Source of the DNA: Limibacillus halophilus
GTDB taxonomy: Bacteria; Pseudomonadota; Alphaproteobacteria; Kiloniellales; CECT-8803
Assembly: GCF_014191775.1 (NCBI RefSeq)
Contig: NZ_JACHXA010000001.1
Coordinates: forward strand, 1-64,000
Direction: 5' to 3'
Length of the DNA stretch: 64,000 bases
In this document: positions 18,717-37,926 of the stretch, one piece after another
Numbering within the stretch: position 1 is the first letter of the stretch
Layout: each line of letters begins with the position of its first letter
The notes under the pieces: generated by a model
The model's database searches: none
The model's input: only the letters and a program-made list of their open reading frames with translations
What the model was told of the DNA's origin: nothing
Position numbers and translations under genes: made by a program

Positions 18717-18719
18717 CTC

Positions 18720-19505: not shown

Positions 19506-19506
19506 A

Positions 19507-21366: not shown

Positions 21367-21394
21367 TAGATCCTCCCTATTTCGACTCGTGGAA

Positions 21395-22738
21395 CTACTT
21401 GATTGCGCCGTGTGCACTTGGGTCCGTGACGTAGTCCTCAAGTCGCACGGCCCCAACTCCTGGAATCCGCTTTCGCTCAAACTCAGCACGACGTGAGAAT
21501 GGCGCTGTTGCATCAATACCGACTCGCCCCCAGTGGTCCTTGTCGGGATCACGGTAAAATGTTGGTGTTTCGGGAATGACGATCATGTCCTTGTCGGGCC
21601 TGCTGCGTGTTAGCGTTGCCCACATGACGTCGTCCATGCTGTAGATATCAACGTCCTCATCGACGACGGTGCAGACCTTCGCCCACGTAGGATCTGCGCC
21701 CATCACAGCCATCAAAACCTGGCGCGCATGCCCTTCGTACTGCTGCTTGATTTTCACCACTGTGTGCAGCACGAACGGCTGGCAGGTGACATCGACGATG
21801 CCTGGAAGGACGGCGCTGATCTTCTGGTAAATGTTGGCGGCCACTGAAAGCTCGAGGGTCAGAACTTCCTCAGCCGAACCACACAAGATGCTGTGAAAAA
21901 TAGCGTCTTTACGACGTGTGACGCCAAGCACCTCGAAGACAGCATTTAAACCGACAGGTGTGTAATACCCCATAAACTCGCCGAAAGGCCCTTCCTCGCG
22001 TCGCTCATTCGGCAGAAATCGGCCTTCAATGACGATCTCCGTGTGCGCTGGCACCATCAGGTCGATGTGCTTGCATTTACGCAGAGGAATGGGTTTGCCT
22101 GCTAGCTGTCCCGCCACCTTGAGTTCATCGACATCGTAGGGCAGCGGCGCCGCCGCCGAGAGGAACGCGGTCGGCGGCGTGCCAATTATCATTGCTGCCT
22201 CCAGGTACTGCCCTTTCTGCTCGGCTTTCTCATGATAAAGCGTAAGGTGATGCCGGGGCGCGAGCCGACACCGCAACTCATCGTCATTGACATACATAGA
22301 GCGGTGAAACGAGAGGTTGCCCACACCAGTTTCCGGGTCCTTCGCAAAGAACATCGCCGACGTGAAGTATGGCCCAGCGTCCTTTTCCGAATAGGTAATC
22401 AGGGGCAGGTCGCTCATCTTGCAGTCGACGATTTCCGGGATTTCTATAGGTTGGGCATTACCGCTTTCAGACTGAGCGCCAAGAGTAGCGAGCTTGTTCC
22501 ATTGCCGGCAGAAGTCATCCGGCTCAATACCGAGGATCTCCGCAATTCGTTCGCGTGCGCCATAGAGATTAGTGACCACAGGAAGTGTCGTTCCCGCCAC
22601 GTTGTGAAACAGGATCGGTTTACCCCATCGCTTATGCGCCGCAGCCGTCACAGCGGCAAGTTCGTGCTTAGGGTCAACTTCACGATCTATCTCAACGAGT
22701 TCGCCACGTTGCCGCAGCCGCTCAATATACTCACGCAT
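21395..22738 (-). CDS. UbiD family prenylated-FMN decarboxylase (module 1)
   Basis: This 447-aa member of the UbiD/Fdc/AroY family performs reversible decarboxylation of unsaturated or (hetero)aromatic acids using prenylated FMN. The acidic catalytic motif EGPFGEFMGYY is present, along with the PHHLTLYHEKAEQKGQ segment and C-terminal GVGAVRLEDY. The ATG at 22738 follows GAGGTGATTGA. The cofactor maker UbiX is encoded 109 bp upstream on the same strand, and the transporter genes follow. It is not the ubiquinone-pathway ubiD by context; its closest relative in the window is the UbiD of module 2. Confidence 0.9.
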   Translation of the reverse strand: MREYIERLRQRGELVEIDREVDPKHELAAVTAAAHKRWGKPILFHNVAGTTLPVVTNLYGARERIAEILGIEPDDFCRQWNKLATLGAQSESGNAQPIEIPEIVDCKMSDLPLITYSEKDAGPYFTSAMFFAKDPETGVGNLSFHRSMYVNDDELRCRLAPRHHLTLYHEKAEQKGQYLEAAMIIGTPPTAFLSAAAPLPYDVDELKVAGQLAGKPIPLRKCKHIDLMVPAHTEIVIEGRFLPNERREEGPFGEFMGYYTPVGLNAVFEVLGVTRRKDAIFHSILCGSAEEVLTLELSVAANIYQKISAVLPGIVDVTCQPFVLHTVVKIKQQYEGHARQVLMAVMGADPTWAKVCTVVDEDVDIYSMDDVMWATLTRSRPDKDMIVIPETPTFYRDPDKDHWGRVGIDATAPFSRRAEFERKRIPGVGAVRLEDYVTDPSAHGAIK

Positions 22739-22847
22739 TCAATCACCTCGATCCGTTTCTTGATTCACTGGTATCCGCAAATTCGGCCGCACCGCCATGC
22801 GCGCTCAACGACCGCACCCGGTGGTGGGCTGTAAGTCTTTGCCGACT

Positions 22848-23525
22848 TCAAGCCCTTCGCCTTTCAATTTCTGATGTTGTTCTGATTGGTTCCGATGGTT
22901 CGTTCCGGGCGGCCCGTTCTGTAGTTTGGTCCAATCCAGATTCGCCCCACCGCGCTATGCGGCCCGTATCCAAGCCGAACAGATCAAGGGCTCGCCCAAT
23001 CGAATGGTCGACGATGTCATCAACCGTCTGCGGTCGCGCATAGAAGGCGGGAACTGGCGGCATGACGATGGCTCCCATTTCCGTGACTTGGGTCATCGCA
23101 CGCAAGTGTCCCAGATGCAGCGGTGTTTCTCTGAGCATCAAAACCAGCCGTCGGCGCTCTTTCAACACCACGTCGGCTGCCCGTGCTAGCAGGCCGGTTG
23201 TGACGCCGCTTGCAATTGCCGACATACTACGGATCGAACAGGGCGCCACCAGCATGCCGTCTGTACGAAAAGAACCGCTTGAAATCGCCGCTGCGATGTC
23301 ATCCTCGCGGTATACCACCGAGGCTAAGTTTGTTACCGCCGAAACCTTGATAGGTAATTCGTGAGCCAGGGTAACTTGTGCTGCGCGGGTCATGACAAGG
23401 TGGGTCTCAACTCCGATTTCACGCAACACTTCTAACGCGCGGACGCCAAGGACAACCCCAGATGCGCCACTAATTCCAACAATAATGCGACGCGTTCTCT
23501 GCGGATGCAGATTATCTGCGATCAC
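22848..23525 (-). CDS. UbiX family flavin prenyltransferase (module 1)
   Basis: This enzyme makes prenylated FMN from FMN and dimethylallyl phosphate for the UbiD partner. The flavin loop VGISGASG is followed by RRLVLMLRETPLHLGHL and a PPVPAFYARPQTVDDIVDH segment, all UbiX/Pad1 hallmarks. A GTG at 23525, 3-5 nt after GGGAGGGGAA, is preferred (225 aa); an ATG at 23561 would add 12 residues of no family match. A tail of about 40 residues past the usual end is polar and probably unstructured. It is divergent from the IclR gene at 23685. Confidence 0.9.
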   Translation of the reverse strand: MIADNLHPQRTRRIIVGISGASGVVLGVRALEVLREIGVETHLVMTRAAQVTLAHELPIKVSAVTNLASVVYREDDIAAAISSGSFRTDGMLVAPCSIRSMSAIASGVTTGLLARAADVVLKERRRLVLMLRETPLHLGHLRAMTQVTEMGAIVMPPVPAFYARPQTVDDIVDHSIGRALDLFGLDTGRIARWGESGLDQTTERAARNEPSEPIRTTSEIERRRA

Positions 23526-23580
23526 AGGTTCCCCTCCCCACCCGACCGTCTCGGAGCGCATAAAACGGCCCGAGTCATCT

Positions 23581-23626
23581 GTTGCATATTTTGCAACACT
23601 GTTGCATTTAATGATACTATTATAAT
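23581..23626. promoter_or_regulatory. Putative IclR operator between ubiX-1 and iclR-1
   Basis: A perfect inverted repeat, GTTGCA-TATTT-TGCAAC (23581-23597), is followed by CTGTTG and the AT-rich ATACTAT. The same layout occurs at 31992-32030 upstream of the second IclR gene of this island. TATAAT at 23621 could be a -10 for the IclR gene, but no well-spaced -35 is visible. Confidence 0.5.
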
Positions 23627-23684
23627 ATCCACTGTCAACGCCAATCTGTTTCCGTTAACCACTACCGGACCTACAACGAAGACG

Positions 23685-24455
23685 ATGGAGTCAAACAAGA
23701 TGGCACCCCTTGCAGGCATGAAGACCGTCCGACATGCAATCGTCGTACTTCGCTGCTTTTCAGTGGCTGAATCTCTACTTGGCGTGAACGAGATCGCACG
23801 CCGCACGGGCCTACATAAGAGTTCCGTATCGCGCCTCGTCGCTACGCTGGAAGAAGCTCATCTTTTAGAACGGGACACCGCAACCAAACGATTGCGCCTT
23901 GGCGATGGGCTGTTGACGATCGCAGCGCCCTTATTCAGCAAGATGGGATTTTTGAATGCGGTCCGCCCAGTGCTTGAAAAGCTCTCGCAGACAACTGAGG
24001 AAACAGCATATTTCAACATCTGGGACGGCAGTGAAGCTGTCGTCGTCGATCAGGCGGTTGGGCCCAACGCGGTCACGCACTTCGCCCCATTGGGGATGAG
24101 AAACCCCGCGCACTGCACTGCAACTGGGAAAGTACTTTTGGCCTTTGCTTCAGAATCCGAGGTCGATGCCGTCTTATCGGTTGGCCTGCACAAGTATACG
24201 CCCAGCAGCGTCACGGACCCGGTTACACTGCGAGAACAACTCGCGGATATCCGTGCGAATGGCGTTGCTCTAAATATCGGTGAACTTGCCAGTGATGTCG
24301 GCGCAATCGCCGCCATCGTCCGCAAAGAACATGGTGCCATAGCAGGTGCCATCGCCGTCAGTGTACCCCTTTACCGGTTTGGCAGGGACCGCCAAGAAGA
24401 ACTTCGTAAAATGGTCTTGGAAGCCGCAAAATCCCTGTCCCAGCGTTTAAGCTAA
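23685..24455 (+). CDS. IclR family transcriptional regulator (module 1)
   Basis: This 256-aa protein has a winged helix (roughly 10-70, LGVNEIARRTGLHKSSVSRL) and an IclR effector domain (roughly 85-250, with NPAHCTATGKVLLAF). The ATG at 23685 is chosen; earlier in-frame codons run through the operator region. It closely resembles the regulator at 32082 (both have GVNEVAR-type recognition helices and HCTA-GKVLLAF), so the two probably bind related sites. It is divergent from ubiX-1 and convergent with ubiX-2. Confidence 0.9.
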   Translation: MESNKMAPLAGMKTVRHAIVVLRCFSVAESLLGVNEIARRTGLHKSSVSRLVATLEEAHLLERDTATKRLRLGDGLLTIAAPLFSKMGFLNAVRPVLEKLSQTTEETAYFNIWDGSEAVVVDQAVGPNAVTHFAPLGMRNPAHCTATGKVLLAFASESEVDAVLSVGLHKYTPSSVTDPVTLREQLADIRANGVALNIGELASDVGAIAAIVRKEHGAIAGAIAVSVPLYRFGRDRQEELRKMVLEAAKSLSQRLS

Positions 24456-24464
24456 GCAAGACGC

Positions 24465-24506
24465 TTCGGTGCTGATTAACTGCACAAGGCATCTTCGAGC
24501 ACCGAA
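24465..24506. terminator. Possible bidirectional terminator hairpin
   Basis: TTCGGTGCT (24465-24473) and AGCACCGAA (24498-24506) can pair over 9 bp with a 24-nt loop, between the convergent iclR-1 and ubiX-2 genes. There is no long T tract on either side, so the call rests on position and pairing only. Confidence 0.3.
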
Positions 24507-24515
24507 AAGCCCTCA

Positions 24516-25127
24516 TTAATCATTAGGAGAATCCAACGGCCCGCGAAGGCCGATTGTCTCGCCCCAGCGCTGCAAGGTGCCAACATCGATTCCAAACAAA
24601 TCCAGTGCTCTGCCGACACTATGATTGACGATGTCATCAATGGATTTTGGTTTGGTGTAAAAAGCAGGGAGCGGCGGCATGATGATCGCTCCCATTTCGG
24701 TAACCTGGGTCATACTGCGCAGATGACCCAAATGAAGTGGCGTTTCGCGCACCATGAGAACAAGCCGGCGGCGCTCTTTCAGAACGACGTCGGCCGCCCG
24801 GGAAAGCAAACCCGAGGTAACACCGCTAGCAATTTCCGAAAGGCTTCGGATCGAACAGGGCGCAACAAGCATCCCCAGCGTGATGAAAGAGCCGCTCGAT
24901 ATGCTTGCCGCTATGTCATCAGCCTTGTGAATGACATCGGCCAACTGGTGCAGATCGGCCGCTTTCATATGGAGTTCTTGGGCAAGAGTAATCTGCGCGG
25001 AACGGGTCACGACAAGGTGAGCCTCGATATCCGTTCCGCGCAGCATTTCCAAAGCGCGCACACCATAGATGGCACCTGAAGCACCGCTGATGGCTACAAT
25101 CATTCTACGTGGAGGCGCCTTTTTCAT
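24516..25127 (-). CDS. UbiX family flavin prenyltransferase (module 2)
   Basis: This 203-aa UbiX/Pad1 homologue has VAISGASGAIYGVRALEML at the flavin loop, RRLVLMVRETPLHLGHLRS and PPLPAFYTKPKSIDDIVNH. It is very similar to the module 1 UbiX, which points to duplication of the whole set. It would supply prenylated FMN to the second UbiD. It is the last gene of the module 2 operon, 28 bp after the binding-protein gene, whereas module 1 has ubiX first, so gene order was changed after duplication or the sets were acquired separately. Confidence 0.92.
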   Translation of the reverse strand: MKKAPPRRMIVAISGASGAIYGVRALEMLRGTDIEAHLVVTRSAQITLAQELHMKAADLHQLADVIHKADDIAASISSGSFITLGMLVAPCSIRSLSEIASGVTSGLLSRAADVVLKERRRLVLMVRETPLHLGHLRSMTQVTEMGAIIMPPLPAFYTKPKSIDDIVNHSVGRALDLFGIDVGTLQRWGETIGLRGPLDSPND

Positions 25128-25154
25128 GGGCTGAGTCTCCGACCTAGTCCGGCT

Positions 25155-26159
25155 TTAATGGATAAAGTCGTTGGTGTAATAGGTAGTGACGTCCTCCACG
25201 GTCGTATTGAGGCCGCCAAACTCCTTCATCAGAGCCTGGGTCGCTTCCCAACGCTCTTTGACGGAAAAGCCCACCGTGTCTCCCTCGGACCCTTTCGCAT
25301 GCAGCAACGCAGCGGTTGCCTTCAGTTTTTCGACTTCCACTGCCTTCTTTCGGCTGGGTGAACGTTTTAGAAGCGCGTCGATAGACTCTTCGGGATTTTG
25401 GAGAGCGTAGTCGTAGGCCCGCAGGGTCGCTTTCACGAATGCGGCAACGATTTCGGGTGAATTCTCGACAGTCTCTGTATGGGCGGCAATTCCGTCACCC
25501 ATCGTATCAACACCAAATGATGCATAGGTGAAGTGGTTCAGCTTAACTTCGGCCGCATCGGAAAGGCTAAGAAGGCTGTCATTGGGAAATCCTGTGATAG
25601 CCTCCGTACGCTTGGCTAGGAAGGTCTGGTTTCGCGTACCGCCATCGGAAGCAATGATCTGCACTTTCGATGAGTCGATGCCGTTCTTCGCAAGCAAGGC
25701 GTACAGCATCGTGGTGGTCATGTCGCCCTGAAGGGTCGCAACCTTCTTGCCTACGAGATCAGCAGGCTCCTTAATGTTCTGCTCAGGCCAGCTGATCAGT
25801 GCATTGGGGCTGGTTTGGTAAAGTTGAGCGACCTGCTTGATGGGCATGCCTTGCGCCACGCCAAGCATCAACGACGGCGGGTCGATGATCGCGAAGGTAT
25901 CCTGTTGGGCCGCTACGAGCTGCATGGATGACGTAACGCCCTTACCTTCCAAGACCTCAACGTCGAGACCTGCTTCTTTGTAGAACCCCTTGTCCACTCC
26001 GAGTAGATAGGGCGAGCGGTGGCCGTTGTAGCTGAAGGCCAGTCGGACGGTCACCTTCTTCAGTTCCTCCGCATTGGAAGGTGCTCCAAAGGTAATTACC
26101 CCTGATAAAGCCACCGCAACGGTTGCTGCTATGACAATCATTCTGCGTGTTAGTCTCAT
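25155..26159 (-). CDS. ABC substrate-binding protein, NMT1/THI5-like (module 2)
   Basis: This 334-aa periplasmic binding protein has a signal peptide (RRMIVIAATVAVALSGVITF, cleavage near SNAEE). The mature N-terminus VRLAFSYNGHRSPYLLGVDK shares the HRSPY pattern with its module 1 counterpart, but the remainder is clearly diverged, so the two importers may take different though related compounds. The start follows GGAGAGGAA. ATPase and permease genes of the same class are upstream in the operon. Confidence 0.9.
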   Translation of the reverse strand: MRLTRRMIVIAATVAVALSGVITFGAPSNAEELKKVTVRLAFSYNGHRSPYLLGVDKGFYKEAGLDVEVLEGKGVTSSMQLVAAQQDTFAIIDPPSLMLGVAQGMPIKQVAQLYQTSPNALISWPEQNIKEPADLVGKKVATLQGDMTTTMLYALLAKNGIDSSKVQIIASDGGTRNQTFLAKRTEAITGFPNDSLLSLSDAAEVKLNHFTYASFGVDTMGDGIAAHTETVENSPEIVAAFVKATLRAYDYALQNPEESIDALLKRSPSRKKAVEVEKLKATAALLHAKGSEGDTVGFSVKERWEATQALMKEFGGLNTTVEDVTTYYTNDFIH

Positions 26160-26184
26160 AAGTTCCTCTCCTATTCGCTAATTG

Positions 26185-26961
26185 TTAGTACGCTTTCAGA
26201 ACCCCATGTTGCTCGAACAGATGACGCACTCGCGCCACTGTGTTCACAAACTGCTGGGATTCCATCGTTCCAGGCCGCCTGGGATGTGGCAGGTCGGTTT
26301 TGATAATTTCGGCAATACGCCCCGGACGCGGCGTCATCACTACGACGCGGTCCGCCAGAAGGACGGCTTCCTGGATATCGTGCGTGATGAAGATCACGCT
26401 TTTCTGTGTTTCGAGCCAGATTTGGTGAAGCTCCATCACCATCTGTTCACGAGTCAGTGCATCGAGTGCACCAAATGGTTCATCCATCAACAGGATCGGT
26501 GGTTCGTGAATCAACGCCCGGCATATGGAGACACGCTGGCGCATGCCACCTGACAGCTCGTAAGGAAACTTTTTCTCGAATCCACCTAGACCGACTTTAT
26601 CCAATAGAGAACGCGCTCGGTCCTCATAAGCTTTGCGGTCAAGCCCGCGCATTTCTGGCTGGATGAGCACATTGTCAAGCACGCTGCGCCAATCCAGGAG
26701 AACATCCGTCTGGAACACAATGCCCAACTCAGTCACGGGCTTTGTGATTTCATTGCCATTGGCTAAAATCGTTCCATTGGTCGGAAATGCCAGCCCAGAC
26801 GCCATAGACAAGAGCGTGCTTTTACCGCACCCACTTGGACCTACAATGGAAATGAATTCACCCTCTGCAATTTGCAGGCTGAAATCTCGCAGTGCTTCAA
26901 TCGGACCGCTCGAGGTGTGATAGGATTTACTGACATTCTGGAATTGGAGCGTATCAGCCAT
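26185..26961 (-). CDS. ABC transporter ATP-binding protein, SsuB/TauB-type (module 2)
   Basis: This 258-aa ATPase has Walker A GPSGCGKST, signature LSGGMRQR, Walker B ILLMDEP and the histidine loop ITHDIQEAV. The ATG at 26961 overlaps the permease stop (ATGA); the in-frame start at 27009 lies inside the permease gene. It is the energy-coupling subunit of the second NMT1-type importer. Confidence 0.92.
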   Translation of the reverse strand: MADTLQFQNVSKSYHTSSGPIEALRDFSLQIAEGEFISIVGPSGCGKSTLLSMASGLAFPTNGTILANGNEITKPVTELGIVFQTDVLLDWRSVLDNVLIQPEMRGLDRKAYEDRARSLLDKVGLGGFEKKFPYELSGGMRQRVSICRALIHEPPILLMDEPFGALDALTREQMVMELHQIWLETQKSVIFITHDIQEAVLLADRVVVMTPRPGRIAEIIKTDLPHPRRPGTMESQQFVNTVARVRHLFEQHGVLKAY

Positions 26962-27779
26962 CAGCTTTTCTCCTTGCCGTGGCCAGAGGTGCGGTGTGAG
27001 ACATGCCACGGGAGCAGTAAACGTTCGGCAAGATCGACCACTGCGAACAGCGCTATCCCGACAAGGCTCAGCACGACGAGAATTGCGAATGAAAGGCCTA
27101 CGTCCAGCGTCCCGTTCGCGACGATAAGTTGGTAACCAAGCCCACTGTCTGCGGCTACGAACTCACCAACCACGGCACCGACCACCGCCAGTGTGCTGGC
27201 GACTTTCAGCCCAGCGAAAATATTTGGAAGGGCGCCGGGCAGCTGAAAGTTGAGAAATATTTTCCGCCGTGGGGCCCCCATTGACCGCGCCAGCCAGATC
27301 ACCTCTTTAGGCGTCGAGCGGAACCCTATTAGCGAATCAATGACGATTGGGAAGAAACAGATCAGGAATGCGATCACAATCTTCGGAAAAAGGCCGAAGC
27401 CGAACCAAACAACGATAAGCGGGGCAATTGCGACCTTCGGAATCGTCTGAGACGCGACTAGAATGGGATAAAGCGCCCGCTCCAGCGTACGGAATTGGGC
27501 TAAGATTGCTGCTAGTGGAATGCTGACGACGATAGCCAGCGCAAACCCAACCACTACCTCATTTGCGGTTACCAAAGTGTGCATCAGCAGTAAGCTGTGA
27601 TCCGCAACGATGCGCACAAAGATGGCCGAGGGTGGGGGCAGCAAATAGCTTGGCACCTCGCCAATTCTCACAACGGCTTCCCATAACAGAAGCAATCCCA
27701 ATGCCAGAAGCGTGCTATCCAGAGACGACGGCCAACGCCACCATCTAGAATTCGATTTGTTTGGGGCCTCGGATGTCAT
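26961..27779 (-). CDS. ABC transporter permease, SsuC/TauC-type (module 2)
   Basis: This 272-aa inner-membrane permease has about six hydrophobic segments. The EAA loop reads LARSMGAPRRKIFLNFQLPG, and LKVASTLAVVGAVVGEFVA is typical of the class. Its start overlaps the stop of the HisC-like gene and its stop overlaps the ATPase start (4 bp each), giving a tightly coupled operon. It is diverged from the module 1 permease beyond the family motifs. Confidence 0.9.
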   Translation of the reverse strand: MTSEAPNKSNSRWWRWPSSLDSTLLALGLLLLWEAVVRIGEVPSYLLPPPSAIFVRIVADHSLLLMHTLVTANEVVVGFALAIVVSIPLAAILAQFRTLERALYPILVASQTIPKVAIAPLIVVWFGFGLFPKIVIAFLICFFPIVIDSLIGFRSTPKEVIWLARSMGAPRRKIFLNFQLPGALPNIFAGLKVASTLAVVGAVVGEFVAADSGLGYQLIVANGTLDVGLSFAILVVLSLVGIALFAVVDLAERLLLPWHVSHRTSGHGKEKS

Positions 27780-28876
27780 TGAAGCGCCTCCAATGCTGAG
27801 ATCAATTTGAGGTTCTCAGCGTGTCCGCGTAGCGAGACGCGGAGCACGTTATGTTTCTCAAGCCCACGGAAGGAAGTTGCATCCGCAACGACGATCCCAT
27901 TGGCTGCCAGCTCGGCCGCGGCAACTCCTGGATCACGGTCGCCAATGTCCAGTAGCAGCATGTTTGCGTTGCCGCCCCTGATCGACAACCTGGGGATGGA
28001 CGCGACCCTTTCCAGAAACCAAGCGACTTCATTGCGGAATTGGGCTTTGCAGGCTGGCAGGAAGGTAGTGTCCGCAAGCGCGGCCGCAGCAGCGCACACC
28101 GCTGATGCGGCCATATTGAATGGTGGCCGGCCTACTTCTGCCACTCGGACCAGCGAAGACGGGGCAACCGCATATCCGATTCGAAGTCCGGCCAATCCGA
28201 AATACTTTGAGAAAGTACGCAACACCACGATGTTATCGTGTTTGCGGGCGAGAGGCATTGCGCCATCCTCGGAGGGGTAGATCAACGCTTCGTCGATGAT
28301 AAAAATGGTATCGGGGTGACGCCTAGCCATTCGTTCGATGTCGTCATTCGATACAGTCGCGCCCGTCGGGTTGTTAGGCGTACAGATAAAAGCAAGCGCA
28401 ATATCGGAAGCGGTCAATTCACGTGCGATTGCTGCCGTACTTATTTCCTCTGGTGGATCATTCTCGACAACGACAAGGGTACAACCTCTAAGCCGTGCTT
28501 CGAGCTCATAGCGGGGAAAGGTTGGAATGTGGATTAGGACCTTATCACCTTCGCTAGTCCAAGCCTGGAGTAGCAGCTTAATGACATCATCCAACCCCGC
28601 TCCAAAAAACAAGCACTCTTCCGACAGCTCGTGCCGTGCCGCCAACGCACTCCGGAGTCGCTGGAAATTGATATCAGGATAAAGGTTTGACCGTTCTAGC
28701 GCTGCACTTGCGGCGGCGATTGCCGAGGGTGGCGAACCAAGTGGATTGACGTTTAGCGAGAAGTCGATGACCGCTGACGCCTCAAGCCCGTACCGTAAGG
28801 CAATGGTCTCTACCGACGTCTCAGCCTCGTATAGGCGCAGCGAGGCGAGCTCTCTACTCTGACTGTTAAGAGTCAT
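27776..28876 (-). CDS. HisC/CobD-like PLP-dependent aminotransferase or decarboxylase
   Basis: This 366-aa fold-type-I enzyme has the PLP lysine K224 in TFSKYFGLAGLRIGY, CTPNNPTGA around 165-173 and IIDEALIYP near 193-201. The NVNPLGSPPSA opening is shared by threonine-phosphate decarboxylase (CobD) and histidinol-phosphate aminotransferase. No cobalamin or histidine biosynthesis gene is near; instead it lies with UbiD, a D-glutamate-cyclase-like protein and a racemase-like protein, so a catabolic transamination or decarboxylation is likelier. The ATG at 28876 overlaps the upstream stop (ATGA). Confidence 0.85.
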   Translation of the reverse strand: MTLNSQSRELASLRLYEAETSVETIALRYGLEASAVIDFSLNVNPLGSPPSAIAAASAALERSNLYPDINFQRLRSALAARHELSEECLFFGAGLDDVIKLLLQAWTSEGDKVLIHIPTFPRYELEARLRGCTLVVVENDPPEEISTAAIARELTASDIALAFICTPNNPTGATVSNDDIERMARRHPDTIFIIDEALIYPSEDGAMPLARKHDNIVVLRTFSKYFGLAGLRIGYAVAPSSLVRVAEVGRPPFNMAASAVCAAAAALADTTFLPACKAQFRNEVAWFLERVASIPRLSIRGGNANMLLLDIGDRDPGVAAAELAANGIVVADATSFRGLEKHNVLRVSLRGHAENLKLISALEALQ

Positions 28877-29607
28877 GATGATAGCACCTTGCCAAATCCT
28901 GGGTGAATTGTGGGCGCGCCCAACGCCCGTAGAATTGCCCAAAGTGTGACTTGGTTGCTGCTGAGCACCGGTTTCCCAAGCTCCCGTTCCAGTCTGCCAA
29001 TCACTTCTAGTGCGCGAAGGTCGGTGCAGCTCAGAAACAGCGCTTCGCTGTCGGGCGTGTCGGCTTGATGCGCGAGCTGGACGATTTCTTCAGTAGGCAC
29101 TTCGCGGATCGCTGATCCCGAAAGGCCCAGTCCCACAACCGAACGGACATCGATTCCGTGGCTGGCGAAGAATGATCGCTCGGCCTCATTGATCTCGTCA
29201 CGGTATGGTGTTGCAAGTGCAAGTTTCGTCACGCCCAAGTGGCAAAACGCATCAATGATCGCGCGCGATGTGGCGACCACAGGACACCCTGCAATACTGG
29301 CAATTCGATCAACCTGGTTTTGCAGTCCAGCTTCGCCGTCAACAAAGCTGCCACTCGTACAGGCGAACGCAATGACGTCAGGCGATAGGTCAGCAAGCAA
29401 CGAAGCCGCCGACTCGACACACTCGTTCATCGCGCGGAGCCCCTCAGGCGTGGTCGAAGTAAGCGGCACCCGTGTCGTATGGAAAGTGAGCCCTGCAGGC
29501 GCTATCCAGGCGAAATCAGGCTCGACCACCGCGTTGACGGAAGGCACGATCATCCCGACGCGACGACCTGCTGGTCGAACCCGCATTTGTGTCACTTCGT
29601 CTGCCAT
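28873..29607 (-). CDS. Maleate isomerase / Asp-Glu racemase superfamily protein
   Basis: This 244-aa protein resembles maleate cis-trans isomerase and arylmalonate decarboxylase. Both catalytic cysteines of the racemase/isomerase type are present: C83 in FACTSGSF and C194 in FLSCTDLRA. N25 in PSVNAVVEPDF matches the isomerase substrate loop. Arylmalonate decarboxylase keeps only the second cysteine, so isomerisation or racemisation is favoured. It overlaps the DUF4392 gene upstream by 16 bp. The substrate may be an unsaturated diacid or a glutamate-like acid. Confidence 0.85.
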   Translation of the reverse strand: MADEVTQMRVRPAGRRVGMIVPSVNAVVEPDFAWIAPAGLTFHTTRVPLTSTTPEGLRAMNECVESAASLLADLSPDVIAFACTSGSFVDGEAGLQNQVDRIASIAGCPVVATSRAIIDAFCHLGVTKLALATPYRDEINEAERSFFASHGIDVRSVVGLGLSGSAIREVPTEEIVQLAHQADTPDSEALFLSCTDLRALEVIGRLERELGKPVLSSNQVTLWAILRALGAPTIHPGFGKVLSS

Positions 29608-30629
29608 GAGTTCTGATATCCGCTGATGTTCGCGCCTTCGCGCTGGCTGAGCAGGACGATTGAGCGCAGTAAGTCAACTAGACACGCGTTGGCGTGCGCA
29701 TCGGTGCCATCCACATAAAGCCTGTGTTGCCCGCCAACGGGATCAATCGCACCGGCTCGCACACAAGCCTCGATCAAACGTTTTTCATGCTCTCCGTCGT
29801 GGAACGCGTCGCTGTTGCCTACCAAAGCGGCAAGGCAAGCGGCAATACCGTATGCACCCCAATTCGAAATGTTGGCGACGACTGTGATATCCGCTTCCTG
29901 GCGTGCCGCGATCACATCGCCAAGGGGAACGTCAGTTGCGACAATGCCAGCAACCGCCCCCATACCGAGCTCGTTTCCGAGATCGCCGACACCGATTGTC
30001 GGAATCCCGGCCTTCCGTGCTTCAGAGAACAGAATATCGGTCTTTGCGGTGAAGGATGAAATCTCAAAGCCACCGCCGCCGTGATAGTGACCGTCCTCGC
30101 CGGCGCCTGGCCGCTCAATCGCAATCAGGGCTTTGGGCTTGTGTCGGTCAAGTAACTCCTTTGCGGCGCGGACTGCCTCGGCTTCATCAACCGGAAAACC
30201 CGAGAGTCCGTAACGGTGACGCCCGGAATCCAGTTGGTCGTCCGTGGCTGGCACTAATCCCGCCGCAGAGAAACAGGCTTCCATACAAGGGACAATCGAG
30301 TCTTCTGAAATGCCGATCGGAACTGCCCCAAGCCCAACCGACAAGGCGCGGGCCATCACCGCGGCGCCAATCGGCCCATCGGTTTCCGGCAAGCCATAAT
30401 CGCGCATGATGAACCCACTCAAAACCAGCACCCGGTCGCCACGGGATACCTTTTCCTTCAGGAGATTCGCCGCAGACAGAGTTACCGATCCACCCGCCAA
30501 TTCGCGCGCGGCGGCATGAAGCTTGGCCAGCGGCAGGCCTTTGAGAATTGTCCAGTTGGAAATAGGGGCGGTGACAAGATGATCGATCGCATCGCCGATA
30601 CGTTTTGGGTCAAGAATTGTGGTCTGCAT
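29592..30629 (-). CDS. DUF4392 / D-glutamate cyclase-like protein
   Basis: This 345-aa protein matches the pattern of D-glutamate cyclase, which turns D-glutamate into 5-oxo-D-proline. IERPG lies at 171-175, a glycine-rich loop GEDGHYHGGGGFEI follows, and IGVGDLGNELGMG is at 212-224. It lacks the extra N-terminal domain seen in the animal enzyme. It sits between UbiD-2 and the racemase-like gene and overlaps both (20 and 16 bp), so the three are co-translated. A role on D-glutamate itself or on an analogue formed by this pathway is inferred. Confidence 0.8.
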   Translation of the reverse strand: MQTTILDPKRIGDAIDHLVTAPISNWTILKGLPLAKLHAAARELAGGSVTLSAANLLKEKVSRGDRVLVLSGFIMRDYGLPETDGPIGAAVMARALSVGLGAVPIGISEDSIVPCMEACFSAAGLVPATDDQLDSGRHRYGLSGFPVDEAEAVRAAKELLDRHKPKALIAIERPGAGEDGHYHGGGGFEISSFTAKTDILFSEARKAGIPTIGVGDLGNELGMGAVAGIVATDVPLGDVIAARQEADITVVANISNWGAYGIAACLAALVGNSDAFHDGEHEKRLIEACVRAGAIDPVGGQHRLYVDGTDAHANACLVDLLRSIVLLSQREGANISGYQNSWQTK

Positions 30630-31968
30630 TTATATAGTCCTCCAACCGGATTTCCGCTTCACCGGGAAACCGGCGGCGCTCAAAAAGTTGCTGCATGACA
30701 ATTGGCGCGGTGGCGTCAATACCGACTTTGCCCCGGTGCACGTCTCGAACGTCCTCACGTGTGTAACTTGGAACACGAGGCACGACGTAGATGCCGGTCT
30801 CTGGCGTGCAGCGGGTCTGGATTGCCCAGAGAACATCCGCTGCATCGAAGGGGTCGACGTCCTTGTCCACCACCACCACCACTTTGGTCCAAGAGTACCC
30901 GCCTAGAGCCGCCAACATGGCATTCTTGGCCTGATCTTCATTCTGCTTGTCGATGGAGATGACGCATCCGAACACGTAGCCAGGCGTGGCGATATCACGG
31001 ATTTTCGGGACGAAGCTGGAGACCTTCTTATAAATCTCCGCCTGAATCGGTACGCCAACGAGGTTCAGATCTTCAGTGCCCCCGGCAAGGATAGCGTGGT
31101 ACATCGCATCACGCCGCCGCGTGATTGCAGTGACCCTGAAAACATGATTTTTCATGACGGGAACATATCCGTCAGTGAATTCTCCAAAGGGGCCTTCGTC
31201 CTCGCGAACACCGGCGACAACCTCGCCCTCAATCACAATCTCGGCGTCGGCTGGAACATCGACAGGGATTGTCTTGCAGCGGGTCACGCGCAGTGATTTA
31301 CCCTGCCATGCGCCCGCCACTTCAAGTTCGTCGGCCTCATAGGGCACCTTGGATGCGGCGGAGAACATCAGGCCCGGAGGCGCGCCAATGACGATAGCAC
31401 AAGGTAGGTTCTTCCCCTGTGCCTCGGCCTCGGCGTGATAGCGCCCAAGATGCTGAGGCGGCATCATCCTGACGCGCAGCTTGTTGCCTCCCGCAAGTTG
31501 ACATCTGTTCCAAGACGCATTGTATGCGCCGGTCTCAGGATGCGGCGCCACCAATATACCGGCGGTAATATAGGCTCCGCCGTCATGTTCGGAGAAAACG
31601 ATCTGTGGGAGGTCTCGGGCGACATCGATGCCGTCACCAATCTTCACAACTTCCTGCACTGGAGCCACGTCAACATGCTCAACAGGCAATCCCTTAGCTT
31701 CCAATGACACCATTGTGCGCAGGAGATCGCTTTCGGCTAAACCGAGTGATTGAGCGACAGTCTTACGAAAACCGAAGACATTAGTGATGACCGGAATGTC
31801 AGAACCCTTAACATCGCGGAACAGAAGTGGCCGGTTCGGACCCTTCTGCATGCGACGCATGACAGCCGTCAGTTCATGACGTGGATCGACCGAGCGGTCA
31901 ACGAAAGCCACCTCCCCACTGCGCTGCATAACTTCCACAAGTTGTCGAAAAGTCTCAAAAGCCGGCAT
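30610..31968 (-). CDS. UbiD family prenylated-FMN decarboxylase (module 2)
   Basis: This 452-aa UbiD family member has EDEGPFGEFTDGYVPV carrying the paired acidic residues, PPQHLGRYHAEAEAQGKNLP matching the prenylated-FMN binding stretch, and GKVGIDATAPIVMQ near the end. The ATG at 31968 follows GAGGAAGAT, preferred over 32007. It is the first gene of an eight-gene operon and divergent from the IclR gene at 32082. It differs markedly from UbiD-1 outside the motifs, so a different acid substrate is possible. Confidence 0.9.
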   Translation of the reverse strand: MPAFETFRQLVEVMQRSGEVAFVDRSVDPRHELTAVMRRMQKGPNRPLLFRDVKGSDIPVITNVFGFRKTVAQSLGLAESDLLRTMVSLEAKGLPVEHVDVAPVQEVVKIGDGIDVARDLPQIVFSEHDGGAYITAGILVAPHPETGAYNASWNRCQLAGGNKLRVRMMPPQHLGRYHAEAEAQGKNLPCAIVIGAPPGLMFSAASKVPYEADELEVAGAWQGKSLRVTRCKTIPVDVPADAEIVIEGEVVAGVREDEGPFGEFTDGYVPVMKNHVFRVTAITRRRDAMYHAILAGGTEDLNLVGVPIQAEIYKKVSSFVPKIRDIATPGYVFGCVISIDKQNEDQAKNAMLAALGGYSWTKVVVVVDKDVDPFDAADVLWAIQTRCTPETGIYVVPRVPSYTREDVRDVHRGKVGIDATAPIVMQQLFERRRFPGEAEIRLEDYINADHNS

Positions 31969-31991
31969 ATCTTCCTCAGTGAAAAAAGTGT

Positions 31992-32030
31992 GTTGGCGTG
32001 TTGCCAACGCTGTTGGTTAAATATACTATC
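31992..32030. promoter_or_regulatory. Putative IclR operator between ubiD-2 and iclR-2
   Basis: A perfect inverted repeat, GTTGGC-GTGTT-GCCAAC (31992-32008), is followed by CTGTTG and ATACTAT, the same spacing and downstream words as at 23581. It lies 24 bp upstream of the UbiD-2 start, where repressor binding would block transcription. Confidence 0.5.
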
Positions 32031-32081
32031 CTTTGTTGACGCCACTGCTGTCAATAAAAAATCCGTGGAAAGGTTGAGGCT

Positions 32082-32885
32082 TTGAAAAGAAATCCATCCC
32101 CAGAAAAGAGCGCGCGGACGGTACACGCAGTTAAACACCTGACAGATATCCTGCGCTGTGTGTCTAAATCATCCGACCCTATCGGCGTGAACGAGGTTGC
32201 TCGCCAAGTCGGTCTCGACAAGAGCTCGGTTTCCCGCCTCATTGCTTCGCTGGAACAAGAGCGATTACTGCAGAAGGGTCGAGATGGCGGGATACGCCTT
32301 GGGTTAGGGCTGTTGGCAATCGCCGCGCCGCTGATGCGCGATCTTGGGTTGTCAACTCGGGTACGGCCAAGTCTGGAAGAACTGGCAGAGCGTACCGGGG
32401 AAACTGTTAATCTCAGTGTATGGAGTGGAAGCGAGTCGGTGAGCATTGCGCAGGCGCTTGGATCGAATGCAATTACCCATTTTGCTTCGCCTGGACAGAC
32501 AAATCCGGCCCATTGCACGGCATCTGGCAAGGTGCTTTTAGCTTTTGAACCGCCCGAGGTCGTAGAGCATGTCCTCTCGCAACCGCTCGAGAAATACACC
32601 GACCGCACCGTGGTCGACCCCAGAATTATACGCCAGCAGTTGCAAGAGATACGGGCAAGGGGATATGCGGTTAACCATGGTGAGTTCGCTTTAGATGTCT
32701 GCGCGGTAAGCGCGGCTGTGTGCGATCTCGACGGAAGCCTGGTAGGTGCCCTGACCGTCACCATTCCAGCGTACCGATTCGACCAGGATCGCCAAGCCGC
32801 GGTTCTCACCTCGACACTGTCCGTTGCAAATGATCTGTCCGAGCAATTCGGCTTTCGTGGTAAAGCCTTTCGCAGTGCGCTTTAA
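32082..32885 (+). CDS. IclR family transcriptional regulator (module 2)
   Basis: This 267-aa protein has a winged helix including IGVNEVARQVGLDKSSVSRL, and an effector domain with NPAHCTASGKVLLAF. It is the close paralogue of the regulator at 23685. No ATG is available before the conserved region; a TTG at 32082 preceded by GGAAAGG is the best start. It is divergent from the module 2 operon and probably regulates it, perhaps with cross-talk to module 1 through the shared operator. Confidence 0.9.
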   Translation: MKRNPSPEKSARTVHAVKHLTDILRCVSKSSDPIGVNEVARQVGLDKSSVSRLIASLEQERLLQKGRDGGIRLGLGLLAIAAPLMRDLGLSTRVRPSLEELAERTGETVNLSVWSGSESVSIAQALGSNAITHFASPGQTNPAHCTASGKVLLAFEPPEVVEHVLSQPLEKYTDRTVVDPRIIRQQLQEIRARGYAVNHGEFALDVCAVSAAVCDLDGSLVGALTVTIPAYRFDQDRQAAVLTSTLSVANDLSEQFGFRGKAFRSAL

Positions 32886-32978
32886 CACACCTGCCCTGTC
32901 GAGCGGTGATGCTGAATGTTACTGTCGTTGTCTGGTTGATCGGATGATGAGGCAGGATGCAGATTCTTCGACCTGAAG

Positions 32979-34343
32979 TCACAATCCTTCCCGCAGCGAC
33001 TTCACCGCAGCGCGATAGGCGGCTGTAATCGATTCCTTTGCCACGTGGCGTCCATCGCGCACCAAATGCCGGCCTGCGGACCATACATCACGCCGCATGT
33101 CGTTGCCGCCCGCAAAGGCGAAACTGTCGAGCACGGTGTCGCCCTGCAATCCCTCGAGATCTGGGTGCCGCATATCCAGTGCCAACAAGTCGGCCCATTC
33201 GCCCTGGGCGATTGTTCCGCTACCACGCCCCGCCGCTTGCGCGCCCCCCTTGGCAGCCGCCTCGAAAATTCGCCGCCCCGTGGATTGTTCGGCGCTGGCC
33301 AAAGCTGCGCGTGTATGGTCGCGAAGCCTCTGTGACGTATCGAGTTGACGCAACTCCTCGGCCAGCGAAATACGAATGTTGCTATCCGACCCAATTGCGA
33401 TAGCGCCTCTTGAATCAAACCATCGCACCGCGTCGAAAATACCATCGCCTAAGCTCGCCTCCGTCAGCGGACAAAGACCGGCGACTGCCCCTGTTCGGGC
33501 CAACCCTTCAATTTCATGGGGCTGCATCTGAGTGCAATGAATTAGACACCAGCGCGGGTCGATATCCAGATGATCAAGTACCCATTCCACCGGCCGGGCG
33601 CCATAGGCAGCCAAAACTTCATCGACTTCGGCCTGTTGCTCGGCCAAGTGCATATGGATAGGCCCGGCCCCAGCCAAAGACGCCGTAGTTACTAAATCTT
33701 CTGCAGCGACTGCGCGCAGTGAATGTGGCGCCACGCCCAATACAGCGTCTGAGGATAAATGGGTCAGCCCATTTCCCGCCGCTTCTAACAGACGTGCAAA
33801 CCTTGAGGGGTCGTTGCCAAATCGACCCTGTCTAACTTCGAGCGGACGACGACCACAACCCGCGTACTGATAGTGCACTGGCAATAGCGTCAGACCGATT
33901 CCGCTCGCGGCTGCGGCGGCTGCGATCCGTTCGGACATCTCGCCCAGGGCTGCATAAGGCGTGCCGTCCGGTTGATGGTGAAGATAGTGGAACTCGATAC
34001 TGGCACCAAATCCCGCCTCTAGCATTTCCATTTGAACAAATGCAGCGATGGCTTCCAGGTGATCAGGTGTGATCCCGTCCAAGAAGCGATACATCAAGCT
34101 GCGCCAAGTCCAGAAGCTGTCGCTCACATCCCGGCCGCGCTTTTCGGTCAGACCGGCCAAGGCTCGTTGGAAGGCATGCGAATGGCAGTTGGCCGGAGCA
34201 GGAACTAGTACATCCACCTGAGTCCCGAACATCGGCTGCCCAGTCAATACCGACGCAATTCGCCCATTAGCAGCAATATTGACAGCCACATCCGTCGCCC
34301 AACCCTTTGCCAGCAGCGCCTGGCGGGCCCATATCGTCGTCAT
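32979..34343 (-). CDS. hutF: Formimidoylglutamate deiminase
   Basis: This 454-aa amidohydrolase of the histidine route releases ammonia from N-formimidoyl-L-glutamate to give N-formyl-L-glutamate. Metal ligands are visible in [26 protein letters not shown] and GSDSNI. Histidine degradation through HutF and HutG is the five-step formylglutamate branch, consistent with hutG downstream of hutH here. It is divergent from hutI with a palindromic operator-like sequence between them. Confidence 0.93.
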
Positions 34344-34418: not shown

Positions 34419-35612
34419 GTGCTGCTGAGTAACGCAAAAATTGCCACGATGACAGGCTCCAACCGCTACGGGCTCATAGAGAATGGAGCGATTGTTCTCT
34501 CCGGAGATTCAATTACCTGGGTGGGGCCAGTGGCTGATCTTCCCAGTCACCTGAAGGGTGGTGAAATTCGCGATCTTGGCGGTCGTCTGGTCACTCCCGC
34601 ATTGATCGATTGCCACACGCATGCTGTGTTCGGTGGTAACCGTGCACGTGAATTCGAGATGCGCTTGGAAGGCGCTACTTATGAAGAGGTTTCACGCGCT
34701 GGCGGCGGGATTGTTTCAACCGTAAAGGCTACGAGGGCTGCCCCAGAAGAGATCCTATTGGTTGAAGCGCTCGCTCGAGTCGATGCACTGATCGCGGAAG
34801 GTATGACGACGATCGAGATCAAATCCGGCTATGGGCTCGATCTAGAGACAGAACTGAAGATGTTACGCACCGCGCGTTCGATCATGGCGAGGCGCGCAGT
34901 CCGTGTGATAACGAGCTTTCTAGGAGCGCACGCTATTCCACCTGAGTATGCAGGCCGTGCGGACGCCTATATAGACGAAGTCGCGATCCCAACGCTCGAA
35001 GCTGCCCATCAGGAGGGACTCGTCGATGCGGTAGATGGGTTCTGCGAAGGCATAGCGTTTGATACCGCACAAATCGGACGGGTATTCGATAAGGCAAAAG
35101 CACTCAACTTGCCTGTAAAGCTGCATGCGGAACAGCTTTCTCATTTCGGAGGCACTGCGCTCGCGGCGCGCTATGGAGCGCTTTCTGCAGATCATCTGGA
35201 ACATGCAACTGATGACGACGTGAAAGCACTGGCTGCCTCAGGCACAGTAGCCGTAATACTGCCCGGAGCCTTCTATACCATTCGCGAAACCAAAGCGCCG
35301 CCGATAGAATTCTTACGAGCCCACGGCGTACCGATGGCACTCGCCACCGACTGCAATCCTGGATCCTCGCCGCTCACTTCTCTTCTATTGGTCATGAACA
35401 TGGGATGCACACTCTTTCGCATGACGCCGGAAGAAGCTTTGGCTGGCGTTACCCGCAATGCTGCTCAAGCGCTTGGCTTAGATGACGTAGGCACGATCGA
35501 GACGGACAAGCGCGCTGACCTCGCCGTTTGGAATGTGGCCGACCCGGCTGAGCTTTCTTATCGGATCGGGTTTAACCCGCTCCATAGCCGTATTTTTGGA
35601 GGAACCACATGA
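34419..35612 (+). CDS. hutI: Imidazolonepropionase
   Basis: This 397-aa metal-dependent amidohydrolase hydrolyses 4-imidazolone-5-propanoate to N-formimidoyl-L-glutamate. Ligand motifs are [19 protein letters not shown] and [12 protein letters not shown] at 34419, eight bases after AAGG, gives the usual N-terminus [10 protein letters not shown]; the TTG at 34356 would run through the operator. It overlaps hutH by 4 bp. Base composition is clearly lower in G+C than in hutH. Confidence 0.92.
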
Positions 35613-37138
35613 CGCTCACGCTCGTGCCCGGTCAGGCGACACTGGAGACGCTGGAGGCGATCTGGCGTGGGACAGGCCCCATACGGCTCGATGAATCGGC
35701 CCGCGCAGGCATTGAGGCCGCTGCCAAGTTGGTCCGTGACGCGGCGGCAGGCGATGCCGCTATCTATGGCGTAAACACCGGCTTCGGCAAGCTTGCCAGC
35801 GTCAAGATCGCGGCAAAGGACACGGCGAAGCTGCAACGCAATTTGATCCTCAGTCACTGCTGCGGCGTGGGCCAAGCGCTCGACCAGGCGACGACACGGC
35901 TGATGATGGCGCTGAAGCTCCTCAGCCTGGGACGCGGCGCTTCGGGCGTGGCTTGGGAGACGGTTCGCTTGCTGGAGGATATGCTGGCCGCAGGGGTCAT
36001 GCCCGTCGTCCCCGATCAAGGTTCGGTCGGCGCCTCCGGTGATCTGGCACCGCTGGCGCACATGGCTGCGGCCATGCTGGGTGAAGGCCGGGCAACCCAT
36101 GACGGCGAGGAGCTCCCGGCGGCGGAGGCCCTTAAGCGCGCCGGACTGACGCCTATCGTGCTCGGACCGAAGGAAGGTTTGGCGCTCATCAACGGCACCC
36201 AGTTTTCGACGGCCTGCGCGCTCGTTGGCCTGTTCGGCGCCTGGGCCAACGCCCGCGCCTCAGTCGTCACGGCGGCTCTTTCCACCGACGCCATCATGGG
36301 CTCCACCGCTCCGTTGGTGGATGCGATCCACACGTTACGAGGTCATCCGGGCCAGATCGACGTGGCCCGCGCGCAAACGGCCTTGATGGCGGGTAGTGAG
36401 ATTCGCGAAAGCCACCGGGAAGGTGATACCCGGGTCCAGGACCCCTACTGCATCCGCTGCCAACCGCAGGTAACGGGTGCTGCGATCGACCTATTGCGTT
36501 TCGCAGGCCGGACTCTGGAGGTCGAGGCCAATGCCGTGACCGACAATCCACTGGTCCTCGTCGAGGAAGGGCTGATCGTCTCCGGCGGCAATTTTCATGC
36601 CGAACCCGTCGCTTTCGCGGCCGACCAGATCGCGCTGGCGGTGGCCGAGATCGGCGCCATTGCGCAGCGCCGCGTCGCCTTGATGGTGGACCCGACGCTC
36701 AGCTTCGACCTGCCACCGTTTCTGACACCCGATCCGGGGCTCAACTCGGGTCTGATGATTGCCGAAGTGACGACGGCGGCGCTGATGAGCGAGAACAAGC
36801 ACCTAGCCCACGCCTGCTCCACCGATTCCACCCCGACTTCGGCCAACCAGGAAGATCACGTCAGCATGGCCGCCCATGCCGCCCGGCGGCTGCACCGTAT
36901 GAACGCCAACCTGAACGTCATTCTTGGCGTGGAGGCCATGTGCGCCGCTCAAGGCATCGAGTTTCGCGCGCCGCTGAACACCAGCACCACGCTCCAGGGC
37001 GTGATGGGGCGACTGCGCAGCGAAGCGCCTCGCGTTACCGAAGACCGCTACTTGGCCGATGATATCGCCAGTGCTGCGGCGATGATCGCCGACGGTCGCC
37101 TCACCCACGACCTCAGTTTGCCGGAGCTTGGGGGATGA
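35609..37138 (+). CDS. hutH: Histidine ammonia-lyase
   Basis: This 509-aa enzyme removes ammonia from L-histidine to give urocanate. The Ala-Ser-Gly tripeptide that forms the MIO group is A142-S143-G144 in [14 protein letters not shown], and Y53 in YGVNTGFG is the catalytic tyrosine. The start follows GGAGG inside the hutI end. The gene is much richer in G+C than both neighbours: a 60-base sample at 36001-36060 has 43 G/C, against 29 at 35041 in hutI and 28 at 37621 in hutG. This suggests a separate origin within the operon. Confidence 0.95.
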
Positions 37139-37926
37139 AACCTGTCGAGGTGTCACGCGGCGACGGGCCGATCGTATTGGGGATACCGCATAGCGGTACA
37201 TGGCTGCCAGGCCACATCAAGGCACAGTTAAATGACCGCGGTCGAACCCTCGCCGATACTGATTGGCACATCGACCGCCTTTATCACGGTCTATTACCCG
37301 GCGCGACAACAGTGCGAGCAACTTTTCATCGTTATGTGATTGATGCTAATCGCTCACCAAAAAACGAGAGTCTCTATCCGGGTCAAAATACGACTAGCCT
37401 GGTGCCCGTTACGGATTTTGACGGCCGGCCGATCTGGAGCACCGCGCCCGACGCTGCGGAAGTAGCTGCAAGGCGAGCAGCCTTTCACACTCCCTATCAT
37501 ACAGCGTTGGAGGTCGAATTAAAGCGGGTGCAGAAGCGCCATGGCGTTGCCATTCTTTACGACTGCCACTCCATTCGATCTCAAATACCTTATCTGTTCG
37601 ACGGAAAATTACCGGACTTTAACATTGGCACCGCATCAAGCAGCAGTTGTGATGAAAGGCTCGAAGATTTGGTGCAATCAATCTGTAAAGCAACAGGGGG
37701 GACGACTGCCACCAATGGGCGCTTCAAGGGCGGTTGGGCCACGCGCCACTATGGCCGACCTCTTCATGGCATTCACGCTATTCAGATGGAGTTGGCGCAA
37801 TCCACCTACTTAGAAAATGAAGCTCCACCATTTACATATGATGAGTTGAAAAGCGCCCACCTGCGTTCCCTTCTGGCAGAGATTTTGGGTCGGATCGCAT
37901 CACTGGCGCCCGAACTGGGGAGATAA
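37135..37926 (+). CDS. hutG: N-formylglutamate deformylase
   Basis: This 263-aa N-formylglutamate amidohydrolase releases formate and L-glutamate, the last step of the hutF branch. [11 protein letters not shown] near the N-terminus and LYDCHSIRS in the middle are family hallmarks. Its start overlaps the hutH stop (4 bp). No urocanase gene follows; the next gene is a LysR regulator on the other strand, so the urocanate hydratase step must be encoded elsewhere or is missing. Confidence 0.92.

Follow-up and report, generated by a model that had tools for sequence, protein, structure and literature searches.

A conserved UbiD–DUF4392 operon with its own importer in Limibacillus halophilus, tentatively assigned to the catabolism of a histidine-related carboxylate

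What is the function of an operon that combines a UbiD-family decarboxylase with a DUF4392 protein, a racemase-like enzyme and a HisC-like enzyme? The question arises from 64,000 nucleotides of Limibacillus halophilus (assembly GCF_014191775.1, contig NZ_JACHXA010000001.1, positions 1 to 64,000), the whole stretch analysed here and hereafter called the window. On its minus strand, an operon of eight genes extends from 31968 to 24516. Gene content, order, co-direction, conservation and intact catalytic signatures can be read directly from the DNA. Tentatively, we propose that an IclR regulator controls the operon and that its enzymes break down a carboxylate of the imidazole type, related to histidine, a possible reading in which substrate and step order are deduced from the genes. 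Its most informative clue is the occurrence of spare histidine utilisation (hut) genes near UbiD loci.

The operon starts with UbiD-1, a UbiD-family prenylated flavin mononucleotide (prenyl-FMN) decarboxylase (30610–31968; Pfam UbiD, UbiD_N, UbiD_C; TIGR00148). It is followed by a PF14336/DUF4392 protein, a probable Mn/Mg metalloenzyme (29592–30629; PF14336 251 bits, cut-off 27.9), a two-cysteine enzyme of the arylmalonate decarboxylase (AMDase)/EutA/maleate isomerase family, predicted to be a racemase or isomerase (28873–29607; PF17645 139 bits, cut-off 25.9), and a HisC/CobD-like pyridoxal phosphate (PLP) enzyme, a predicted aminotransferase (27776–28876; PF00155 141 bits, cut-off 19.7). An ATP-binding cassette (ABC) importer comprises a permease (26961–27779; PF00528), an ATPase (26185–26961; PF00005) and an NMT1/THI5-like substrate-binding protein (25155–26159; PF09084). 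The last gene codes for the flavin prenyltransferase UbiX (24516–25127; TIGR00421 238.2 bits, cut-off 108.9). A divergent gene on the plus strand, starting 113 bases upstream of UbiD-1, encodes an IclR-family regulator (32082–32885); its best NCBIfam model, BhcR, scores 137 bits, under the cut-off of 350.

The four enzyme genes are true open frames free of internal stops, according to a frame check. Overlaps measure 20 bases for UbiD/DUF4392, 16 for DUF4392/AMDase-like, 4 for PLP/permease and 1 for permease/ATPase. The AMDase-like and PLP genes share an ATGA, the ATG of the PLP gene (28876–28874) lying within the stop of the AMDase-like gene. Gaps of 25 and 27 bases separate the ATPase from the binding protein and the binding protein from UbiX. 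A first-pass annotation had seen UbiD, DUF4392, the two-cysteine enzyme and the PLP enzyme as one operon with overlapping ends, which is confirmed by the open frames, the Pfam matches and the order kept in relatives. The unit is longer than these four genes and includes the permease, ATPase, NMT1 protein and UbiX down to 24516. The 'UbiD-2' of that annotation is UbiD-1 here; UbiD-2 now denotes a paralog at 21395–22738. Regarding an interruption by promoters, a consensus scan of 18600–33200 found six promoter-like sites versus a shuffle mean of 7.9, thus no excess. One weak site (9/12) at 28907–28878, the AMDase/PLP junction, leaves room for an internal promoter. Layout and conservation as a unit support one transcription unit of eight genes.

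The eight-gene set is rare. The DUF4392 protein alone served as query in a collection of 84,980 species with one genome each, using a pattern search that finds close relatives only. Six loci were confirmed: in Nitratireductor indicus, metagenome-assembled genomes (MAGs) of a Rhizobiaceae bacterium, Bosea and Rhizobium, Afifella marina and a bin titled Bordetella parapertussis. A plasmid search added a seventh, on a conjugative plasmid of Pseudohalocynthiibacter aestuariivivens. The full gene order recurs in five of the seven fetched orthologous loci (L013, L014, L015, L017, L020), so the arrangement is not a matter of chance. Contig ends truncate the other two: L016 comprises just the four enzymes, L018 just UbiD and DUF4392; L016 has 99.7% the same DNA as the Bosea locus L015. 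Protein identities of the four enzymes are 57–88% in the five loci with the full order. The IclR gene is found at the same place in all seven, L016 and L018 included, and all six complete copies (with the window) have both the NMT1-type importer and the IclR regulator. Among sampled genomes, the DUF4392 protein had matches at 1e-10 in 9 of 385 of the class, with at most 40% identity besides its own genome, and at 1e-40 in 2 of 61 of the order, the second being 34% identical. At 1e-80, it matched 2 of 394 in the family of genome G441, namely G441 and G443, the genomes of L014 and L016. Of 398 genomes sampled from the phylum, 4 matched UbiD-1 at 1e-90, the three others at 38%. No description of the operon or its gene combination was found among the papers listed from the open-licence PubMed Central (PMC) literature, in agreement with the earlier remark that the route matches no described pathway. 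Searches of this literature gave no paper on UbiD with D-glutamate cyclase or with NMT1 transporters, unrelated co-mentions for UbiD with histidine utilisation, one paper, unrelated by its title, for UbiD with urocanate, and no more than a table entry for D-glutamate cyclase in an operon.

The IclR gene is adjoined by hutF, hutI, hutH and hutG. Formimidoylglutamate deiminase hutF (32979–34343, minus strand; TIGR02022 540.9 bits, cut-off 413.05) is a second copy of a gene at C3:37551–38909. On the plus strand follow hutI (34446–35612; 451.7 bits, cut-off 298.15), with another copy at C3:39097–40230, hutH (35609–37138) and hutG (37135–37926), the latter a second copy named by similarity (44% identity to the hutG-like gene of contig C3). 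Elsewhere in the genome, C3 encodes hutF and hutI, both over their cut-offs, the hutG-like gene and a HutC-type gene, and C7 encodes hutU and hutH. The window set is therefore a spare set without hutU. The two hutH genes, in the window and at C7:7676–9205 (L050, beside hutU), share 98.1% DNA identity over 1565 bases, a recent copy of a single gene. In Bosea, 182 bases separate UbiX from the called start of a complete hutH that follows it, and the same genome has hutU, hutG, hutH, hutI and hutF together on contig C13. Best among the matches listed for this Bosea hutH were rhizobial hutH genes with 85–89% identity over 484 of 512 residues. The end of these matches at residue 484 had raised the idea of a broken remnant, which was rejected since the C-terminus is complete.

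The paralogous UbiD-2 system (18720–23561, minus strand) consists of UbiX, UbiD, NMT1 binding protein, ATPase and permease, with its own IclR regulator beside the operon (23592–24455, plus strand). It also adjoins the UbiD-1 operon in Bosea. Six UbiD-2 orthologs with 67–70% identity were fetched; five have a HutC-type regulator beside UbiD and one has hutF. Two of the HutC-type regulators were scored, reaching 268 and 262.6 bits, over the HutC equivalog cut-off of 220. The orthologs of S. meliloti and Paracoccus have genes for a regulator over the HutC cut-off, a racemase, a flavin adenine dinucleotide (FAD) oxidase, a thiamine pyrophosphate enzyme and an aldehyde dehydrogenase adjoining. The ortholog locus with hutF is that of genome G1136, where UbiD-2 and this spare gene (670 bits) are roughly 7 kb apart, and another hutF is present in the genome. 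Controls had hut genes in 0/13 loci of remote UbiD-2 homologs, 0/11 of DUF4392 paralogs and 0/3 of AMDase paralogs, together 0/27 in loci of 5 to 20 kb that had been fetched for other reasons and are not a random sample. Genes were called with a simple hexamer model, for which the window was the training sequence; a tblastn recount of the hut genes that did not depend on these calls gave the same result. We regard the spare hut genes of the window, Bosea and G1136 as three independent events and, together with one HutC clade, as moderate evidence for a hut link. The neighbouring hut cluster, which the first-pass annotation thought might be coincidence, looks less like one.

The decarboxylase is well supported as a family member: UbiD-1 scores 331.7 bits with TIGR00148, over the cut-off of 244.85. 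Its nearest solved chains are HmfF (6H6V, E 2.9e-77) and AnInD. The names of 6H6V (HmfF) and of AnInD are given in PMC8988006; AnInD is an indole-3-carboxylate enzyme. The UbiD architecture and the active-site network of one arginine and two glutamates are common to UbiD-1 and HmfF, a furan-2,5-dicarboxylate decarboxylase; R155, E258 and E263 of UbiD-1 align to the HmfF residues and are kept in 7/7 orthologs. A difference concerns HmfF His296 and Arg304, contacts of the second carboxylate, whose places were counted on the alignment. UbiD-1 has Asp and Ile instead, in 7/7 orthologs, so UbiD-1 is probably no furandicarboxylate enzyme of the HmfF type, and an HmfF-type furan route was discarded. 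The NMT1 binding protein has 4NMY and 3IX1, a pyrimidine-precursor binding protein, as nearest solved chains.

An alignment can be made between the PF14336 protein and TON_0340 (5GKX, 4DWZ). The metal ligands of TON_0340, listed as Glu59, Asp61, Glu115, Asp157, Glu161 and Asp246 in the available part of PMC5132392, correspond to E82, D84, E172, D216, E220 and D307, invariant in 10/10 aligned sequences. The six kept acids indicate a metalloenzyme but not a cyclase, and the protein is probably Mn- or Mg-dependent. TON_0340, a stand-alone DUF4392 protein, was reported as a weak, probable Mn-dependent phosphatase, as far as the excerpt goes (PMC5132392); an excerpt of PMC5339696 reports D-glutamate cyclase activity for a two-domain mouse protein. 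The Pfam name D-Glu_cyclase belongs to PF07286, the domain that accompanies PF14336 in the enzyme of vertebrates. A profile search found PF07286, the former DUF1445, neither in the PF14336 protein nor anywhere in its genome. Among three ortholog genomes searched, it is present in G442, on another contig, and absent from G441 and G444. The PF14336 domain and the six metal acids are common to DGLUCY (D-glutamate cyclase), TON_0340 and the operon protein, whereas PF07286 separates DGLUCY from the latter. The earlier assignment as a D-glutamate cyclase is supported for the domain but not for the activity, given the absent PF07286 and a stand-alone DUF4392 precedent reported as a probable phosphatase. 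No key residue is lost, with 6/6 metal acids in place, yet this is no evidence for cyclase activity.

Paralogs of the DUF4392 protein occur in amino acid contexts, here a chosen few of the loci viewed. They lie beside threonine dehydratase (L021, L024, L026; RidA too in L021), beside an annotated 'selenocysteine synthase' and amino acid transporters (L023, L025; the L023 copy of the synthase has no Pfam family), beside a class III aminotransferase (L055) and, by eye, beside tripartite ATP-independent periplasmic (TRAP)-type transporters (L056, L059). In L059, a single frame of 666 amino acids (8388–10388) has two tandem PF14336 matches and is located between oxoprolinase-type genes.

The best NCBIfam model of the two-cysteine enzyme is EutA with 165.7 bits, under the TIGR02990 EutA cut-off of 318; the arylmalonate decarboxylase cut-off of 225 is not reached either. 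C194 aligns to the cysteine of AMDase and C83 to a glycine of wild-type AMDase (2VLB), at position 74. Both cysteines are invariant in 6/6 aligned orthologs. Their placement in the active site and their invariance fit a racemase or isomerase, the predicted activity. PF17645 and this cysteine pair of the racemase/isomerase type are common to the operon enzyme and the AMDase/EutA/maleate isomerase family; arylmalonate decarboxylase differs by a single catalytic cysteine, with glycine in the place of C83. A full EutA/ectoine system was dismissed, with the score under the cut-off and no ectoine gene in the operon. An Asp_Glu_race score of 30.2 bits is just under the cut-off of 31. The enzyme falls in the AMDase/EutA/maleate isomerase branch, which is not shown to act on glutamate; the first-pass annotation had placed it in the glutamate-racemase superfamily.

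For the PLP enzyme, HisC is the best NCBIfam model and the HisC structures 8BJ4 and 8BJ1 are the best solved matches. Both cut-offs behind the first-pass label HisC/CobD-like are missed (HisC TIGR01141 233.6 bits, cut-off 276.55; CobD TIGR01140 215.6 bits, cut-off 290.55), and a CobD role was rejected on this score. The PLP lysine and a C-terminal arginine are kept. An alanine replaces an arginine of 8BJ4, part of the HisC phosphate site, in 6/6 orthologs. This substitution and the score under the cut-off distinguish the enzyme from histidinol-phosphate aminotransferase.

We infer the substrate class, the order of steps and each enzyme activity as follows. The ABC importer would take up a small carboxylate with a nitrogen-heteroaromatic ring, most likely one related to histidine or urocanate. 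With prenyl-FMN supplied by UbiX, UbiD-1 would take a carboxyl group off the ring or a conjugated side chain. The two-cysteine enzyme may racemise or isomerise the UbiD product, a stereochemical or cis–trans change. The HisC-like enzyme could catalyse amino transfer on a non-phosphorylated, possibly imidazole-bearing, keto or amino acid. Hydrolysis or closure of an amide or lactam by the PF14336 metalloenzyme is the least certain step. The product would enter the histidine route (HutH, HutU, HutI, HutF, HutG) and end as glutamate, which would explain spare hut genes beside some UbiD loci. The hut pathway is not known to include a UbiD, UbiX, PF14336 or AMDase-like step; its links to the loci are the spare hutF, hutI, hutH and hutG by the operon and the HutC-type regulators near UbiD-2.

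Several observations weigh against this proposal. A hut gene is near UbiD-1 in one of six fetched loci, or two of seven with the window, and the five other loci scored have none; L016 was left out of the counts because of its identity to L015, its tblastn giving no hut gene on a contig that ends before that place. Gene calls and tblastn found no hut gene in the flanks of L013, L014, L017 and L020, and the Pseudohalocynthiibacter plasmid has none in 9 kb across the origin, on the other side of the locus. The hut clusters of the Rhizobiaceae MAG and Afifella (G441, G444) are located elsewhere in the genome. Some flanks are short, with 1.4 kb past UbiX in L013 and an end after DUF4392 in L018. 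Taken by itself, the hut link of UbiD-1 is weakened, being seen at two loci. For UbiD-2, the HutC type accounts for five of eight loci when the window and Bosea copies, both with IclR instead, are counted; the five form one clade and thus one event, and HutC homologs may sense other acids. A ring-opening enzyme outside hut was not seen, and the proposal does not account for what the PF14336 protein does. The decarboxylase HudA also counts against it: in the available part of PMC7976604, it acts on pyrrole-2-carboxylate and converts imidazole-4-carboxylate at 1.3% only. Imidazole acids are thus possible but not favoured substrates of HudA.

In the strongest competitor, also possible though somewhat doubtful, the operon degrades a different acid, either an unsaturated or a (hetero)aromatic one, of pyrrole, furan, indole, pyrimidine or benzenoid type, and the hut neighbours are there by chance. 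It would agree with the missing hut genes at five of six fetched UbiD-1 loci, with a binding protein nearest to pyrimidine-precursor binders, with the furandicarboxylate and indole-3-carboxylate enzymes as nearest solved UbiDs and with the substrate preference of HudA in the excerpt (PMC7976604). Chance is opposed by the spare hut genes, seen at three loci independently (window, Bosea, G1136) and in 0/27 controls. A pyrrole acid derived from proline would be a more specific case. Oxidation of a hydroxyproline-type compound yields pyrrole-2-carboxylate. Decarboxylation by UbiD and handling of a 5-oxoproline-like product by lactam enzymes would follow. The UbiD-2 orthologs of Paracoccus and Sinorhizobium, whose neighbours include a racemase of the Asp/Glu type and an FAD oxidase of several subunits, and the HudA precedent, as excerpted (PMC7976604), are in its favour. 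The UbiD-1 operon has no proline-type oxidase, and HutC-type regulation and spare hut genes would stay unexplained, so that this origin is very unlikely.

The first-pass annotation favoured a D-glutamate or glutamate-like acid made from the UbiD product, handled by a cyclase that makes or opens 5-oxoproline, by a racemase of the glutamate type and by an aminotransferase. In agreement with it, the protein matches PF14336 and none of the six metal acids is missing. Hydantoinase/oxoprolinase-type genes are found beside AMDase-like paralogs in 3/3 viewed loci (L045, L046 and L048, chosen from 508 plasmid records), and the tandem PF14336 protein of one locus (L059) lies by oxoprolinase-type genes. 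Since both families are tied in this general way to amino acids and lactams, the idea retains some weight, though a low one. It is nevertheless unlikely: PF07286 is absent from the own genome and from two of three ortholog genomes searched, the operon has no oxoprolinase, the racemase-like enzyme belongs to the AMDase/EutA branch and is under the Asp_Glu_race cut-off, and the PLP enzyme is HisC-like, under the HisC and CobD cut-offs. The claim of such an intermediate after UbiD is therefore weak. AMDase-like, HisC-like and UbiD enzymes can also occur in small-molecule biosynthesis. A biosynthetic cluster for a natural product is nonetheless hardly probable, with an NMT1-type importer and IclR in all six complete copies and with export, carrier or ligase genes absent from the operon.

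Other surroundings of UbiD systems were also observed. In L079, L080, L084, L086 and L089, UbiD homologs with 51–54% identity to UbiD-2 lie within about 1 kb of a hydantoinase/oxoprolinase (caprolactamase-like) pair, and no UbiX was found in the stretch; this UbiD–lactam pairing differs from the operon here. Near the UbiD-2 operon of the window, a serine hydroxymethyltransferase-family gene (16201–17490; 525.6 bits, cut-off 335) is located by a gene that looks phytanoyl-CoA dioxygenase-like by eye. A small TIGR02444/DUF2390 protein is encoded near UbiD–UbiX operons in eight loci (L015 1342–1920, L042 4839–5375, L020 12069–12587, L043 15454–15993, L044 14420–14986, L090 8543–9070, L091 19382–19900, here 8 kb off, and L092 8208–8735). 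It could be an accessory protein by analogy to LpdD, a small UbiD chaperone according to the title of PMC10865409. No paper naming TIGR02444 was found in the open-licence PMC literature. In L043, a poxtA resistance gene of PLSDB (12726–13040, 100% identity) lies exactly over the gene for the (2Fe-2S)-binding protein of an oxidase operon and looks like a mislabelled prediction.

In Bosea (L015/L054), both UbiD systems and hutH are followed by plasmid- or element-like genes (ParA-like and relaxase-like, by eye). This superlocus may be mobile, as in Pseudohalocynthiibacter. The imidazole-type carboxylate proposal can be extended to a new mobile entry to histidine catabolism, a combination that is rather doubtful as a whole. 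It would consist of prenyl-FMN-dependent decarboxylation of an imidazole carboxylated on the ring or side chain, a two-cysteine racemase or isomerase, a HisC-derived aminotransferase without phosphate site, a PF14336 protein of new activity and a dedicated second hut set. If the proposal is true, UbiD enzymes would gain an imidazole-type acid as a further substrate. Should the substrate be another one, the operon still brings together, in a compact and conserved unit, the importer, the enzyme for the cofactor and the genes for four catalytic steps, which makes the role of the DUF4392 protein directly testable.

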